Virus record (IMG/VR): IMGVR_UViG_3300030389_001300
Location: 1 to 30,514 of that record
DNA length: 30,514 nt
Source: a virus
Direction: 5' to 3' (one strand)
The stretch's first letter is position 1, and every line of letters starts with the position of its first letter. The notes beneath the pieces are model-generated. The model saw only the letters and a program-made list of their open reading frames with translations, ran no database searches and was not told the DNA's origin. Shown one piece after another: positions 355 to 30,514 of the stretch. Made by a program: the position numbers and the translations under genes.

Positions 355-382
355 CAAAAACAAGTAATTATAACGATATATA
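355..382 (+). promoter_or_regulatory. Phage-type promoter motif, copy 1
   Basis: CAAAA at 355-359 is followed after 14 bases by CGATATATA at 374-382, and the ATG of the protease gene lies exactly three bases later (386). Five other copies of the same two-part motif occur in the genome, all before structural or packaging genes. The 17-base distance from CAAAA to TATATA matches sigma70-type spacing. Promoter function is inferred. Confidence 0.65.
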
Positions 383-2509: not shown

Positions 2510-2537
2510 CAAATATCAATTTAGTAAACGATATATT
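2510..2537 (+). promoter_or_regulatory. Phage-type promoter motif, copy 2
   Basis: CAAAT at 2510-2514, 14 bases, then CGATATATT at 2529-2537, three bases before ATG 2541. This is the only copy ending in T and the only one with CAAAT in place of CAAAA. Spacing is identical to copies 1, 3 and 4. Confidence 0.55.
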
Positions 2538-2870: not shown

Positions 2871-2898
2871 CAAAATAAATTTTAAAAAGCGATATATA
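2871..2898 (+). promoter_or_regulatory. Phage-type promoter motif, copy 3
   Basis: CAAAA at 2871-2875, 14 bases, CGATATATA at 2890-2898, then GTT and the ATG of the scaffold-like gene at 2902. It matches the consensus in both elements and in spacing. It would drive the scaffold, decoration and capsid genes. Confidence 0.65.
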
Positions 2899-5513: not shown

Positions 5514-5541
5514 CAAAATATCATTTATATTTCGATATATA
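5514..5541 (+). promoter_or_regulatory. Phage-type promoter motif, copy 4
   Basis: CAAAA at 5514-5518, 14 bases, CGATATATA at 5533-5541, three bases before ATG 5545. It follows the 5477-5504 terminator directly and would restart transcription of the portal, connector and fibre genes. Confidence 0.68.
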
Positions 5542-15247: not shown

Positions 15248-15281
15248 AAAGGGGGGGATTAATTTTCTCCTCTTTTTTTTT
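15248..15281 (+). terminator. Intrinsic terminator before the early gene block
   Basis: An 11-bp stem (15248-15258 with 15265-15275, three G-U pairs, seven G in a row on the left arm) with a 6-base loop is followed by T residues to 15281. The promoter -33 element for the early block overlaps its T run. Confidence 0.82.
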
Positions 15282-15309
15282 GGATATTAACAATTTATAA
15301 TTATCTTTG
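15279..15309 (+). promoter_or_regulatory. Host-type promoter for the early gene block
   Basis: TTTG at 15279-15282, 19 bases, then TATCTTTG at 15302-15309. Both elements and the spacing fit the Bacteroidota primary sigma factor (-33 TTTG, -7 TAnnTTTG). The first ATG is at 15326. It begins right after a terminator. Confidence 0.72.
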
Positions 15310-16713: not shown

Positions 16714-17624
16714 TGCTTATAAACTTTGAAGATCATTTAGAAAAACTTGAACTAATACGAACAGGCAAACTAAATGAAGCACCAAAGATAGGCATCGAAG
16801 AAATAGATAGTGTAATACGATTCAAAAGAAATCTTACTTGTTTTGCAGGACACGCAAACGTAGGTAAGACATCTGTTATTATATATTTTATGTTGCTATT
16901 TGCTATGAAACATAAGATAAAATTTTTGGTATTCAGCTCTGAAAACGAACCTCATTCTTTGATTAGAAGATTAATAGAGTTCAAATCTCAAAAACCAATA
17001 AACAAACTGTCAAAAGAAGAACTTGATAAACATACAGAGTTTGTATATGAACATTTTAAATTTATAGACTGCGAACAAAATTATGATTATTTAGATTTAC
17101 TATCTTTGTGTGAGGTGGTTATGCCACAGTATGATTTTGACTGTTTGATAATTGATCCGATAAACAGTTTGAGAAAGAATAAAGGAATGATGAAGTTCAG
17201 TAATGCTTTCGAATATTTGTATGAGTGTATGACAGACTTTAGAATATTTGTTAAAAAATACAATAAAGGTTTGTGGTTAGTGATGCACTCGGTTACTGAA
17301 AGTTTTAGAAAAAAATACAATAGCAATCACGAATACGCAGGACACCCTATACCTTTGGCTATGTCTGATGTAGAGGGTGGCAATGTTTTTGGTAATAGAA
17401 CAGATGATTTCTATACAATTCATAGGATGACCCAACACGAATCAAGATGGATTTATACAGAGCTTCATTGTAAGAAAATCAAAGATCACGACTTAGGATG
17501 TAAGCCAACACCTTTCGATAGTCCACTTATTCTAGAAAGCATTAAGAACAATGTCGGATACAAATTAGGAGACAAAGACATACACAGACCGAACATCATA
17601 GAACAATTAAAAATGCCATTTTGA
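16713..17624 (+). CDS. DnaB-like / RecA-fold replicative ATPase
   Basis: A 303-residue protein with a RecA-type core: Walker A GHANVGKT (46-53), FLVFSSENEP strand with Glu77, Walker B DCLIIDP (Asp148), and LWLVMHSVTE with His192 as a likely sensor. It lacks the N-terminal primase-binding domain of full DnaB helicases and is shorter (about 300 versus 450). It most likely unwinds phage DNA or acts as a loading ATPase. It is flanked by SSB-like and sigma-like genes and overlaps both. Confidence 0.78.
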   Translation: MLINFEDHLEKLELIRTGKLNEAPKIGIEEIDSVIRFKRNLTCFAGHANVGKTSVIIYFMLLFAMKHKIKFLVFSSENEPHSLIRRLIEFKSQKPINKLSKEELDKHTEFVYEHFKFIDCEQNYDYLDLLSLCEVVMPQYDFDCLIIDPINSLRKNKGMMKFSNAFEYLYECMTDFRIFVKKYNKGLWLVMHSVTESFRKKYNSNHEYAGHPIPLAMSDVEGGNVFGNRTDDFYTIHRMTQHESRWIYTELHCKKIKDHDLGCKPTPFDSPLILESIKNNVGYKLGDKDIHRPNIIEQLKMPF

Positions 17625-18100
17625 AAACACAAGTAGAGATAGCATACGAAAGACACGAAAAGTGGATGGAGATCACAAGAAGTTTTGGTGGTTTGAGAGA
17701 AACAGAAGTTGAGGATATAGTGCAAGAACTATACCTTTTGCTAATAAAAAATACACAAAAAGGTATTGACTTCAGTTATGGAGATTGCGATATTAACTAC
17801 TACTACATTTTCAAAATATTGAGAGGTTTGTATGTTGACCTGTTACGAAAGAAAATGAAAGTAACTTACACGACTTTAGAGAATATACAAATAGAAGATG
17901 AGGGTACAGTAAACTATGATGAAGTGTATGCAAAGATACAACAAGCTCTTAAAGAAATTTACTGGTACGATGCAAAGGTATATGATATTGTAAGTGGTGG
18001 AGAAAGCATAAGTGAACTATCAAGAAAAAGTCAAATAAGTTATTACTCACTTTATAATACTTTCAGAAATGTAAAGAAAAAACTAAAAGAACTTATATGA
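17621..18100 (+). CDS. Phage sigma70-like factor
   Basis: A 159-residue protein starting with TTG 17621 inside the helicase stop. The start fits the family beginning (RHEKWMEITRSFGG) better than the internal ATG. Residues about 8-80 resemble sigma region 2 (EDIVQELYLLLI, YYYIFKILRGLYVDLLRKK). Residues 105-158 resemble region 4 with a helix-turn-helix (GESISELSRKSQISYYSLYNTF). Such proteins in flavobacterial phages are annotated as sigma factors. It could direct host RNA polymerase to the CAAAA/CGATATATA motifs before the structural genes; that link is inferred. It overlaps the methylase by four bases. Confidence 0.7.
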   Translation: MKTQVEIAYERHEKWMEITRSFGGLRETEVEDIVQELYLLLIKNTQKGIDFSYGDCDINYYYIFKILRGLYVDLLRKKMKVTYTTLENIQIEDEGTVNYDEVYAKIQQALKEIYWYDAKVYDIVSGGESISELSRKSQISYYSLYNTFRNVKKKLKELI

Positions 18101-18531
18101 AAAACAGAAACTTAATTCATAGTGATAATTGGCAAACACCCAAAGAGTTGTACGATAAATTAAATAAAGAGTTTAATTTTAAGTTTGATCCGTGTCCAAT
18201 AAACCACAACACAGATAATTGGAACGGACTTGAAGTAGAATGGAAAGAAAGAAACTTTATTAATCCACCTTATAGCAGAAAACTAAAAGAACAATTTGTA
18301 AAAAAAGCAATACAAGAAAGTAAGAAAGGTAAATTATGTGTTCTACTTTTACCTGTATCTACAAGCACAAAATTATTTCACGACTTTATTTTACCAAATA
18401 AAAAAGAAATAAGATTTTTAAAAGGTCGAGTGAAATTTGTTGGTTACAATACTTTTGGAGATAAAGTAACAAACAAAGCAGGTATGCACGACAGTATGAT
18501 AGTAATATTAAACGATGAGATTAGGAGATAA
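18097..18531 (+). CDS. Phage DNA N6-adenine methyltransferase (Dam-like)
   Basis: A 144-residue protein of the phage Dam type (PF05869-like): DNWQTPKELYDKLNKEF (10-26), FDPCP (30-34, cofactor-side motif) and NFINPPYSR with the catalytic NPPY at 56-59. It methylates adenine, usually in GATC; the target here is not shown. Probable roles are protection from host nucleases or timing of replication/packaging. There is no partner endonuclease nearby apart from the PD-(D/E)XK-like protein at 18865. It starts within the sigma-like gene. Confidence 0.85.
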   Translation: MKNRNLIHSDNWQTPKELYDKLNKEFNFKFDPCPINHNTDNWNGLEVEWKERNFINPPYSRKLKEQFVKKAIQESKKGKLCVLLLPVSTSTKLFHDFILPNKKEIRFLKGRVKFVGYNTFGDKVTNKAGMHDSMIVILNDEIRR

Positions 18532-18721
18532 ATTAGAATACATAATAAACATCATTACATTTGGTAAAGGCAAAGATATAGCACAATGGATCGCAATAAA
18601 ATTAGGATATGAAGATTGTGGGTGTGATGATAGAAAAAATTGGTTAAATGGAATCACAAGAACTAGAACAAAAACTAAACAAAGAAGAATATCAAAAGTG
18701 GACAAAATTCAAAGGAATTAA
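18515..18721 (+). CDS. Small CGC-motif protein (68 aa)
   Basis: A small protein with MRLGDKLEYIINIITFGKG, then EDCGCDDRKNWLN. The CGCxxRKxxLN motif is typical of a short family I recall in Bacteroidota phages, with no known role. The part after the motif (GITRTRTKTKQRRIS...) is basic and encoded in the overlap with the next gene, which begins 74 bases before this stop. It overlaps the methylase by 17 bases. Confidence 0.62.
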   Translation: MRLGDKLEYIINIITFGKGKDIAQWIAIKLGYEDCGCDDRKNWLNGITRTRTKTKQRRISKVDKIQRN

Positions 18722-18887
18722 AAGCAGTCAGATTAACAAACAAGAACAAGAGCTGATTGCATCTTTACATTCTAAATATTTTTACCATAATTTCTATCTG
18801 CCCTGTGGATGTTCCCCAAGAACTTGGAATCAATGGATAGCAGACATAAATAAATTATACGCAGGTGGGTTTAGAGACAATACATAG
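18648..18887 (+). CDS. Small conserved phage protein (79 aa)
   Basis: A 79-residue protein: a charged N-terminal half (LEQKLNKEEYQKWTKFKGI) and a C-terminal half with HSKYFYHNFYLPCGCSPRTW and QWIADINKLYA. A CxC-x(2-3)-TW pattern with W-x-x-(D/E)-(I/L)-N occurs in small Bacteroidota phage proteins. It overlaps the previous gene by 74 bases in a different frame, a long overlap for this compact genome. No function can be named. Confidence 0.6.
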   Translation: MESQELEQKLNKEEYQKWTKFKGIKSSQINKQEQELIASLHSKYFYHNFYLPCGCSPRTWNQWIADINKLYAGGFRDNT

Positions 18888-21012: not shown

Positions 21013-21041
21013 CAAAAATTAATTAAATTTTACGATATATA
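21013..21041 (+). promoter_or_regulatory. Phage-type promoter motif, copy 5 (before terminase)
   Basis: CAAAA at 21013-21017, 15 bases, CGATATATA at 21033-21041. Unlike the other five, the gene start (21082) is 40 bases downstream, after an ATTAATTAATTAAT-type AT stretch; three bases after the motif stands ATA instead of ATG. It marks the shift from early to packaging genes. Confidence 0.58.
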
Positions 21042-21081
21042 GATATACAAAAGATTAATTAATTAATATTTTATTAATTCT

Positions 21082-21336
21082 ATGGATGGTAGAAAAAACA
21101 ATGGTGGACACTCAACAAAAGGCAGAGCAGGTAGAAAACCAAAGGCACAAGAAAAAGACCTTATTGAAAAACTTGATCTTATAATTAATAATGAGGAAGT
21201 TATTAAGAAACTCAAGGTATTGATAGACAAAGGAGATATGAGAGCTTTGAATTTATATATGGGTTATAGGTACGGCAAACCAAAAGAAACCAAAGACATA
21301 CATATCAACGAAGATGTACCATTATTTATTGATTGA
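21082..21336 (+). CDS. Terminase small subunit-like protein
   Basis: An 84-residue protein with a basic, Gly-rich start (MDGRKNNGGHSTKGRAGRKPKA), a helical core (KDLIEKLDLIINNEEVIKKL) and ALNLYMGYRYGKPKE. This is the pattern of small terminase-type proteins seen right before the large subunit in Bacteroidota phages. It would recognise phage DNA for packaging. Its TGA overlaps the ATG of the large subunit (TGATG). Confidence 0.72.
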   Translation: MDGRKNNGGHSTKGRAGRKPKAQEKDLIEKLDLIINNEEVIKKLKVLIDKGDMRALNLYMGYRYGKPKETKDIHINEDVPLFID

Positions 21337-23320: not shown

Positions 23321-23349
23321 CAAAAATCAATCTTGAATTTCGATATATA
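23321..23349 (+). promoter_or_regulatory. Phage-type promoter motif, copy 6
   Basis: CAAAA at 23321-23325, 15 bases, CGATATATA at 23341-23349, three bases before ATG 23353. It directly follows a terminator, as copy 4 does, and would drive the tail operon to the tape measure gene. Confidence 0.68.
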
Positions 23350-28944: not shown

Positions 28945-30514
28945 TAATAAATTTAGAAGCTAAAACAGATGAAGCCATAAAAGGTATTCAAGAAACAAAG
29001 AAAGAAATACAAGACCTTAACAAAGAAGTTACAAAAGGCAACAAAGATACAGTAGATGGTTTCAAAGCAGTTGAGGGTGCAGGTACAGTTGCAGCAGGTG
29101 GCATAAGAAAAATATCATCATCAATAAAAGCTCTTGGTATAGGTCTTTTGATAGCAGCTTTTGCAAAATTTACAGAAGTATTAAATGAAAATCAAAGAGT
29201 TACAGATTTTTTCAATACAACATTTGAAGTTCTATCTCTTGCCTTCAACGATTTCTTCAATTTTGTTTTTGACAATGTCGGTGGTGTTGTAGATGCGTTC
29301 AAGTCAATATTTGAAAACCCCTTACAATCAATTCTAAATTTTAGAAAATCAATAACAGAAGGTATTATACAGAGATTTAAAGAAATGTTAGAGGTAGTGG
29401 GTTTTGTAGGAGATGCTATTCAAAAAGTATTTAAAGGAGATTTTGCAGGTGCAGCAGAAAGTGCAAAAAATGCAGGTAAGGGTTTATTAGATGTTGTTAC
29501 TGGTGTGGATGACAGTTTCGATAAAACGGTTGAAACAGTTGGTAAAGTTGCAGAAGCAACGAAAAACTATGTAACAGAAACTATCAAAGCAGGTAAAGCA
29601 AATGTCGAACTTACTAAACAAGCAGAAATAGCAAGAGTAAGGCAACAGGGTTTGGTAGAGAGTTTCGATTTACAAGCAGAGAAATTAAGACAAGTAAGAG
29701 ATGAAGAAAGAAACACAATAGAAGATAGAATAAAAGCAAACAATGATTTAGCGAAAGTTTTGGATCAACAAGAAGAAGCTATGCTAAAACAAGTTGATAT
29801 GCAAATTAAAGCAGCACAAGCAGAGTTTGACAAAAATAAAAATCAAGAAAATACAATAGCACTACTTGAAGCACAACAAGAAAAAGAAGCAGTATTAGCA
29901 CAGATTGCAGGTTTTAGATCAGAACAAAAATCAAATGATTTAGCACTTGATAGAGAGCTTATAGAATTGACAAACTCCAAACTAGAATCAGAAGCAAATT
30001 TAGGAATTGAGAGAAAAAGAATCAATGCAAGTAAAATAGAGGATGATTTAAAAAGATTAGAAAGAGAAAAAGAAATTGATTTAGAAGAAGAAACATTACA
30101 AAGAAACAGACTACAAAGGATTGTTGATGAAGCAAACGCAGGGACACAAGCAAAGGTTGATGCTCAAATAGCTTTAGATGAATTTGAAGTTGAGATGTCG
30201 CAAAAAAAACTTGATAGAGAAAAAGAAATATCTGAACAAGAAAAAATAATTTTAGATGCAAGACTAAAAGCTCAGATAGGTTTTGCACAAGCAGTTGGTA
30301 ATGTTGTTGGTGCTTTAGGTGGACTTTTGCAAGAGGGAACTAACGCAAGTAAGGCAGCAGCTCTAGCAGATATTATTATTAAAACAGGAGTTGGTTTTGC
30401 ACAAGGTTTAGATATAGCACAAAAAACGGCAGCAGGAACTGGACCTGCAGCAGCATTTGCTTTTCCCATATTTTATGCTAGTCAAATTGCAGCAGTTTTA
30501 AGCACAGTCAGTTA
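28929..30514 (+). CDS. Tape measure protein, N-terminal part (continues at base 1)
   Basis: ATG 28929 starts a reading frame open to the window end and closed at 351-353 after circular joining: about 612 residues. The N-terminus is a coiled coil (ETKKEIQDLNKEVTKG), then a hydrophobic segment (ALGIGLLIAAFAKFTEVL) and an amphipathic stretch. From about residue 225 a very long helical, charged region follows (QAEIARVRQQGLVESFDLQ; LIELTNSKLESEANLGIERK). The end is an Ala/Gly-rich hydrophobic part. This is a tape measure layout, though short; it would suggest a tail of roughly 90 nm at 0.15 nm per residue. Confidence 0.86.
   Translation, partial: MAKEVIINLEAKTDEAIKGIQETKKEIQDLNKEVTKGNKDTVDGFKAVEGAGTVAAGGIRKISSSIKALGIGLLIAAFAKFTEVLNENQRVTDFFNTTFEVLSLAFNDFFNFVFDNVGGVVDAFKSIFENPLQSILNFRKSITEGIIQRFKEMLEVVGFVGDAIQKVFKGDFAGAAESAKNAGKGLLDVVTGVDDSFDKTVETVGKVAEATKNYVTETIKAGKANVELTKQAEIARVRQQGLVESFDLQAEKLRQVRDEERNTIEDRIKANNDLAKVLDQQEEAMLKQVDMQIKAAQAEFDKNKNQENTIALLEAQQEKEAVLAQIAGFRSEQKSNDLALDRELIELTNSKLESEANLGIERKRINASKIEDDLKRLEREKEIDLEEETLQRNRLQRIVDEANAGTQAKVDAQIALDEFEVEMSQKKLDREKEISEQEKIILDARLKAQIGFAQAVGNVVGALGGLLQEGTNASKAAALADIIIKTGVGFAQGLDIAQKTAAGTGPAAAFAFPIFYASQIAAVLSTVS
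30415..30514. repeat. Terminal overlap, right copy
   Basis: Matches bases 1-100 with one difference: T at 30513 against C at 99. In frame this would turn a CAG codon into TAG if the next bases are as at the left end. It is most simply a wrong or variant base at the contig edge. Confidence 0.93.

Follow-up and report, generated by a model that had tools for sequence, protein, structure and literature searches.

It is known that phages may encode sigma factors for their late genes. In Salmonella phage 7-11, the phage sigma SaPh711_gp47 acts with the host polymerase while the host sigma70 serves the early genes, and bipartite late promoters, GTAAtg-(16)-aCTA, are located upstream of the late genes; in phiEco32, the phage sigma phi32_gp36 serves both middle and late genes (PMC8948821, of which a part was available). 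The window considered here, a stretch of 30,514 nucleotides from a marine bacterial virus, very probably encodes a system of the same kind, in which an ECF-type phage sigma factor directs the host polymerase to six late promoters, a reading for which there are neither biochemical nor RNA data. The kind is already known from 7-11 and phiEco32, but the variant found in the window is new. Phage 7-11 differs in its host (Enterobacteria) and promoter letters, and no -10 element fused to the ATG is reported for it, while phi32_gp36 differs in recognizing a single-element promoter, tAATGTAtA, and in lacking region 4 homology, as far as the available part of the same source goes (PMC8948821). When the window sigma profile was searched against just these two sequences, gp47 showed only a very weak sequence relation (E = 2e-4) and phi32_gp36 was not detected (E = 0.12). 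Cellular ECF (group IV) sigmas, such as E. coli sigmaE, SigR and SigW, share with the window sigma the two-domain fold, the position of loop L3 and a two-block promoter, whereas the window sigma is a phage gene in an early block and its -35 element is adenine-rich. The window ends carry an identical 98-base terminal repeat (1-98 and 30415-30512), hence the genome was circularly assembled and is probably complete.

The genes and gene parts central to the analysis are the following.

17621..18100, + strand: ECF-type sigma factor gene, by fold (159 aa, TTG start, overlapping the helicase gene stop)
17699..17857, + strand: part coding for sigma region 2 (residues 27-79)
17909..18097, + strand: part coding for sigma region 4 (residues 97-159), superposing on E. 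coli sigmaE region 4 with -35 DNA (2h27)
18648..18887, + strand: gene of a 79-aa Cys-motif protein, conserved at some 1 kb beyond the sigma gene
15280..15309, + strand: candidate host-type promoter, TTG-N19-TATCTTTG, before the first gene of the early block that holds the sigma gene

An earlier note on this DNA had claimed region 2-like and region 4-like segments in the 159-residue protein, and both the TIGR02937 match and the two-domain model confirmed this. The sigma70-ECF family TIGR02937 matched residues 18-157 at E = 3.1e-6 (26.9 bits; the curated cut-off of 42.9 was not reached), Pfam Sigma70_r2 yielded E = 0.035 (14.3 bits, below the cut-off of 24), and the PHROG sigma family phrog_1740, E = 0.0042. 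The AlphaFold2 model, built from a 34-sequence alignment, has a mean pLDDT of 85 and consists of two helical domains joined by a low-confidence linker (residues 82-95); it superseded a weak first model from a narrow alignment (pLDDT 64). The top Foldseek matches in PDB were sigma factors or sigma-holding complexes, mostly ECF, two of them with E < 0.001. In VIA-align, residues 1-85 matched Bartonella RpoE with 2.6 A over 79 residues, and the region 4 of E. coli sigmaE in its complex with -35 DNA was matched by residues 97-159 (Z = 9.1, 1.6 A over 63 residues). The structural Z-scores against ECF sigmas range from 8 to 10, and the whole-chain rmsd is large owing to a different arrangement of the two domains. 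The profile of 17 diverse relatives retrieved SigR from the PDB sequences at 1.3e-4, along with SigE and SigW; the same kind of search with the close alignment yielded only chance matches. The architecture is that of the ECF (group IV) class, region 2 and region 4 without region 3, and the length of 159 aa falls into the class range of about 150-200 aa. As the curated cut-offs were missed while the fold matches, we call the protein ECF-like by fold and not a curated family member. Judged by sequence and the predicted model, it is an ECF-type two-domain sigma-70 factor, and its binding to the core RNA polymerase is inferred. A structure unlike sigma regions 2 and 4 would have refuted the proposal of the earlier note; instead, each of the two model domains resembles that of ECF sigma factors.

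A protein of this type could also serve mainly to divert the polymerase from host promoters, its reading of late promoters being secondary or absent. Phage factors that block the host sigma are indeed known, for example phi32_gp79 (PMC8948821, available in part), but the DNA-reading parts of the window sigma are conserved in both domains, the region 4 helix being nearly constant among relatives and the -35 element constant, and we regard this possibility as very unlikely.

The TTG start of the sigma ORF shares bases with the helicase stop (TTGA), and this TTTTGA junction is conserved among the sigma-bearing relatives of the window's own group. The surrounding block is of early type, with genes for a ssDNA-binding protein, a DnaB-like helicase, a Dam methylase, an exonuclease and a DnaA-C-like protein. 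No RNA polymerase gene was seen in the window, although the family-library search covered only part of the ORFs, and no anti-sigma gene was recognized among those sigma neighbours that were searched. Homologues of the 79-aa Cys-motif protein are present about 1 kb downstream of the sigma gene in 169 of the 187 sigma loci; it is possibly a partner of the sigma, which is unproven. Two small Cys-motif ORFs (68 and 79 aa) follow the Dam gene at 18515-18887 of the window, and in a by-eye comparison they resemble two halves of gp37 of Nonlabens phage P12024L (119 aa; L242 22090-22449).

The claim that the sigma gene is made in an early block beginning at a host-type promoter holds for the block, but only weakly for the promoter. 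The sequence TTG-N19-TATCTTTG fits what we take to be the Bacteroidota housekeeping promoter form, and in several relatives similar sites occur at a distance of 2.2 to 2.8 kb before the sigma gene. The pattern is equally common on the antisense strand, and some of its matches fall within coding regions. Thus the promoter remains a candidate that rests on a weak consensus and a conserved place.

The late motif proved real. We scanned the window for CAAAA-N10-30-GATATATA, with the background estimated from 100 shuffles, and found five matches, all on the + strand, against a mean of 0.18 expected; none of the 100 shuffles reached five. The five exact sites read CAAAA-N14/15-CGATATATA, and a sixth, near-exact site, CAAAT-N14-CGATATATT, precedes the ATG at 2541. 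All six are on the coding strand, in front of the prohead-protease, capsid, portal, terminase and tail units.

355..382, + strand: late promoter of the prohead protease gene (CAAAA 355-359, N14, CGATATATA 374-382; ATG 386)
2510..2537, + strand: weaker late promoter (CAAAT 2510-2514, N14, CGATATATT 2529-2537; ATG 2541)
2871..2898, + strand: late promoter of the unit leading into the capsid gene (CAAAA, N14, CGATATATA; ATG 2902)
5514..5541, + strand: late promoter of the unit with portal (CAAAA, N14, CGATATATA; ATG 5545)
21013..21041, + strand: late promoter of the terminase unit (CAAAA, N15, CGATATATA; transcription predicted to begin near 21045)
23321..23349, + strand: late promoter of the tail unit (CAAAA, N15, CGATATATA; ATG 23353)

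The downstream genes were identified as the prohead protease (Pfam Peptidase_S78_2), a capsid-type protein and portal (PHROG), and the large terminase. A repeated non-host promoter ahead of structural units is one of the features of phage late-sigma systems, and the window has it.

Since most of the sites with a nearby ATG stand at a fixed distance from it, CGATATATA might be a translation-start element placed three bases before the start codon. This reading was rejected because the terminase site has no following ATG, and we see hardly any room for it: the CAAAA block holds its spacing of 14-15 bases, hairpin and T-run stretches resembling terminators lie directly upstream of the 5514 and 23321 sites, and F. 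johnsoniae favours A at -3 instead (PMC6847099, seen in part). The terminase unit has a 37-nt leader between the predicted start and the ATG of the small terminase at 21082. The leader (21045-21081) contains GATTAATTAATTAAT-type repeats, with TTGATTAATCAA in several CGTTATA phages; they are conserved in both groups and possibly represent a control element.

In five of the six window sites the -10 element occupies positions -12 to -7 relative to the ATG, hence these mRNAs should be leaderless. If -12 to -7 is indeed where the -10 lies, the transcripts begin at the ATG; the start sites are inferred, as there are no RNA data. To count the register, we considered only sites followed within 30 bases by an ATG that opens an ORF of 50 aa or more. 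The A of this ATG came 12 bases after the C of CG in 32 of 35 CGATATA (A-type) sites, 46 of 64 CGTTATA (T-type) sites and 11 of 16 CGTTAAT sites, whereas on the antisense strand this register was observed in none of 22 sites. Sense sites without such an ATG remained outside these counts (40 of 75 A, 61 of 125 T, 10 of 26 CGTTAAT); terminase leaders similar to that at 21013 account for some of them, and chance matches or truncated ORFs for others. The transcripts of F. johnsoniae are mostly leadered, according to the part of PMC6847099 that was available.

The exact motif recurs in relatives: 57 sites were found in 21 of the 24 related records (the window included), on the same strand as the sigma gene and before the same genes, with the spacing of 14 in 42 sites and 15 in the other 15. 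In the remaining three records, which lack exact sites, the form is CGTTATA, and the motif scan of a CGTTATA phage yielded three sites against 0.03 expected. The -10 element differs by sigma group, with CGATATA in one clade, CGTTATA in the other and CGTTAAT in P12024L, while the -35 element is constant. Among the 187 sigma loci, 95 have a promoter-context site (CGATATA, n = 37; CGTTATA, n = 58), and none has both. After clustering of sigmas at 90% identity, 52 of 68 clusters could be typed (A, n = 17; T, n = 35), again with no cluster having both. Apparent A/T mixtures at some loci turned out, once their surroundings were considered, to lie mostly in coding sequence. When the two-block rule was dropped, a k-mer search of distant records returned A-rich noise, and in the motif scan of viral contigs, the matches listed were mostly single sites.

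Residues 51 and 69 of the sigma, F51 and G69 in the window, track the -10 base. In the A clusters, position 51 is always F or Y and position 69 always G; the T clusters have I (n = 33), L (n = 1) or a gap (n = 1) at 51, and T, S or N at 69. Residue 51 sits between the region 2 helices in the equivalent of loop L3 (residues 47-58), and in ECF sigmas L3 is the part that selects the flipped-out -10 base (PMC8103513, PMC6372665, both seen in part). If the C is at -12, the A- and T-type phages differ exactly at the L3-selected base.

To see whether the -10 type follows the sigma or the terminase, the 95 typed loci were reduced to the 73 that have both TerL and a complete sigma, and further to 59 non-identical ones. 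The A/T type requires one change on the sigma tree (support 98) and three on the TerL tree, and forcing the A rows into one TerL clade was rejected (p = 1.4e-8). Thus the -10 type follows the sigma and not the terminase. Since the A/T switch occurred only once on the sigma tree, its link with residues 51 and 69 counts as one observation, and these residues are to be taken as leads and not as proof. The large terminases of G041, G046 and G051 are only 28-35% identical to that of the window, in contrast to the much closer match of many structural genes around them; by sequence, this pattern is one of terminase swapping.

These data also bear on the alternative in which the phage sigma does something else and a host sigma, ECF or housekeeping, recognizes the late motif with the help of a phage activator. 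The 79-aa Cys-motif protein, almost as conserved as the sigma itself with its 169 of 187 loci, or the DnaA-like HTH protein, whose DnaA-C-like gene is present in all 15 A loci and in 19 of 20 T loci, could be such activators. (The sigma counts in the latter comparison, 15 of 15 A and 20 of 20 T, arise by construction and were excluded as evidence.) However, the phage encodes a full two-domain sigma, the -10 element changes as a block with the sigma clade, and the changed base is the one selected by L3 loops, so that this alternative as a whole also seems improbable to us.

Hence we return to the phage sigma as the reader of the late motif, a suggestion of the earlier note that is now supported by sequence, fold and comparison, with binding and transcription still inferred. 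In this scheme, the sigma would be made early from the host-type promoter, bind the host core RNA polymerase and direct it to the six late promoters, the timing being inferred as well. Region 4 would read the -35 CAAAA, and region 2 the -10 CGATAT, whose third base, A in the window phage and T in the sister phages, is probably chosen by loop L3 (the contact is inferred). Most late units would then start as leaderless mRNAs, while the terminase unit would keep its short leader.

The scheme would have been refuted by relatives that keep the motif but lack the sigma gene, and none was found among the long terminase- and capsid-retrieved records. Of the 80 terminase-retrieved loci, all 19 with at least 6 kb upstream of TerL contain the sigma gene. 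In the capsid-retrieved set, 38 of 80 records were searched for the sigma; it was present in 11, which are all those of at least 22 kb, while the 27 records without it are all 18.1 kb or shorter. Tblastn found no sigma relatives in INPHARED at E up to 1, nor did a scan of bacterial genomes find any; Flavobacterium phage Fpv5 (terminase 49%), searched for the sigma only, gave no match.

How far the promoter form extends is less clear. In the promoter context, CG[AT]TATA is absent from 66 of the 80 capsid-relative loci, many of which are short and some of which have other -10 forms (TGTTATA, TGTTATTTA, TGATTATCTTA, AGTTATCTTA and others), often after ACAAA and immediately before the ATG of the same gene. 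Eight of ten further long records with diverged sigmas have at most two sites each by the patterns used; by the strict pattern, G055 has four sites (one coding-like) and the other nine have at most two, while G077 has three TTATATAT sites by another pattern. Given these variable counts, we consider the promoter form well supported for three sigma groups and likely for two more; for the whole lineage it is not shown.

The isolate P12024L provides a distant case, reached via its capsid (31% identical to the window capsid). Its sigma gene, gp35, is assigned in PHROG to phrog_31712 of 'unknown function', although like the window sigma it has a sigma region 2, in its case with a Sigma70_r2 score above the Pfam cut-off (25.2 against 24 bits). 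The two sigmas are 27% identical (alignment A5), and gp35 differs in a much shorter loop L3 and another -10 element. ACAAA-N13-17-CGTTAAT has six sites in P12024L against 0.09 expected, before gp05, gp08, gp37, gp42, gp45 and gp46, and a near form precedes gp01.

Taken further, and with rather more confidence than doubt, we suggest a Bacteroidota phage lineage with naturally diversified sigma/promoter pairs, in which the -35 ACAAA stays constant, the -10 shifts with the sigma, partly by the choice of one base through L3, among CGATATA, CGTTATA, CGTTAAT and probably TGTTATA and TTATATAT, and the -10 is fused with the start codon (about 15 bp), most late mRNAs being leaderless. No described sigma/promoter pair of Bacteroidota phages was found in the open-access PMC literature, the only one searched, which agrees with the earlier impression that such pairs are undescribed. 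The signal and the sigma change together across relatives, and hence the recognition code is directly testable: the sister sigmas differ in L3 and their promoters by one base, which is a natural test of the ECF specificity code, and P12024L makes the model testable in culture. For a group of mostly uncultured Bacteroidota phages this gives a working model of early-to-late control, and pairs of this kind could be put to use in Bacteroidota as orthogonal promoters.

Two observations concern CGTTATA-type contigs. In L297, a divergent sigma-like ORF (927-1589, E = 4e-7) is located directly ahead of the terminase. In L315 (5954) and L317 (7011), extra promoter-like sites were observed near early genes and the sigma gene, and a part of the early/middle block in some phages of this type may be sigma-dependent as well.
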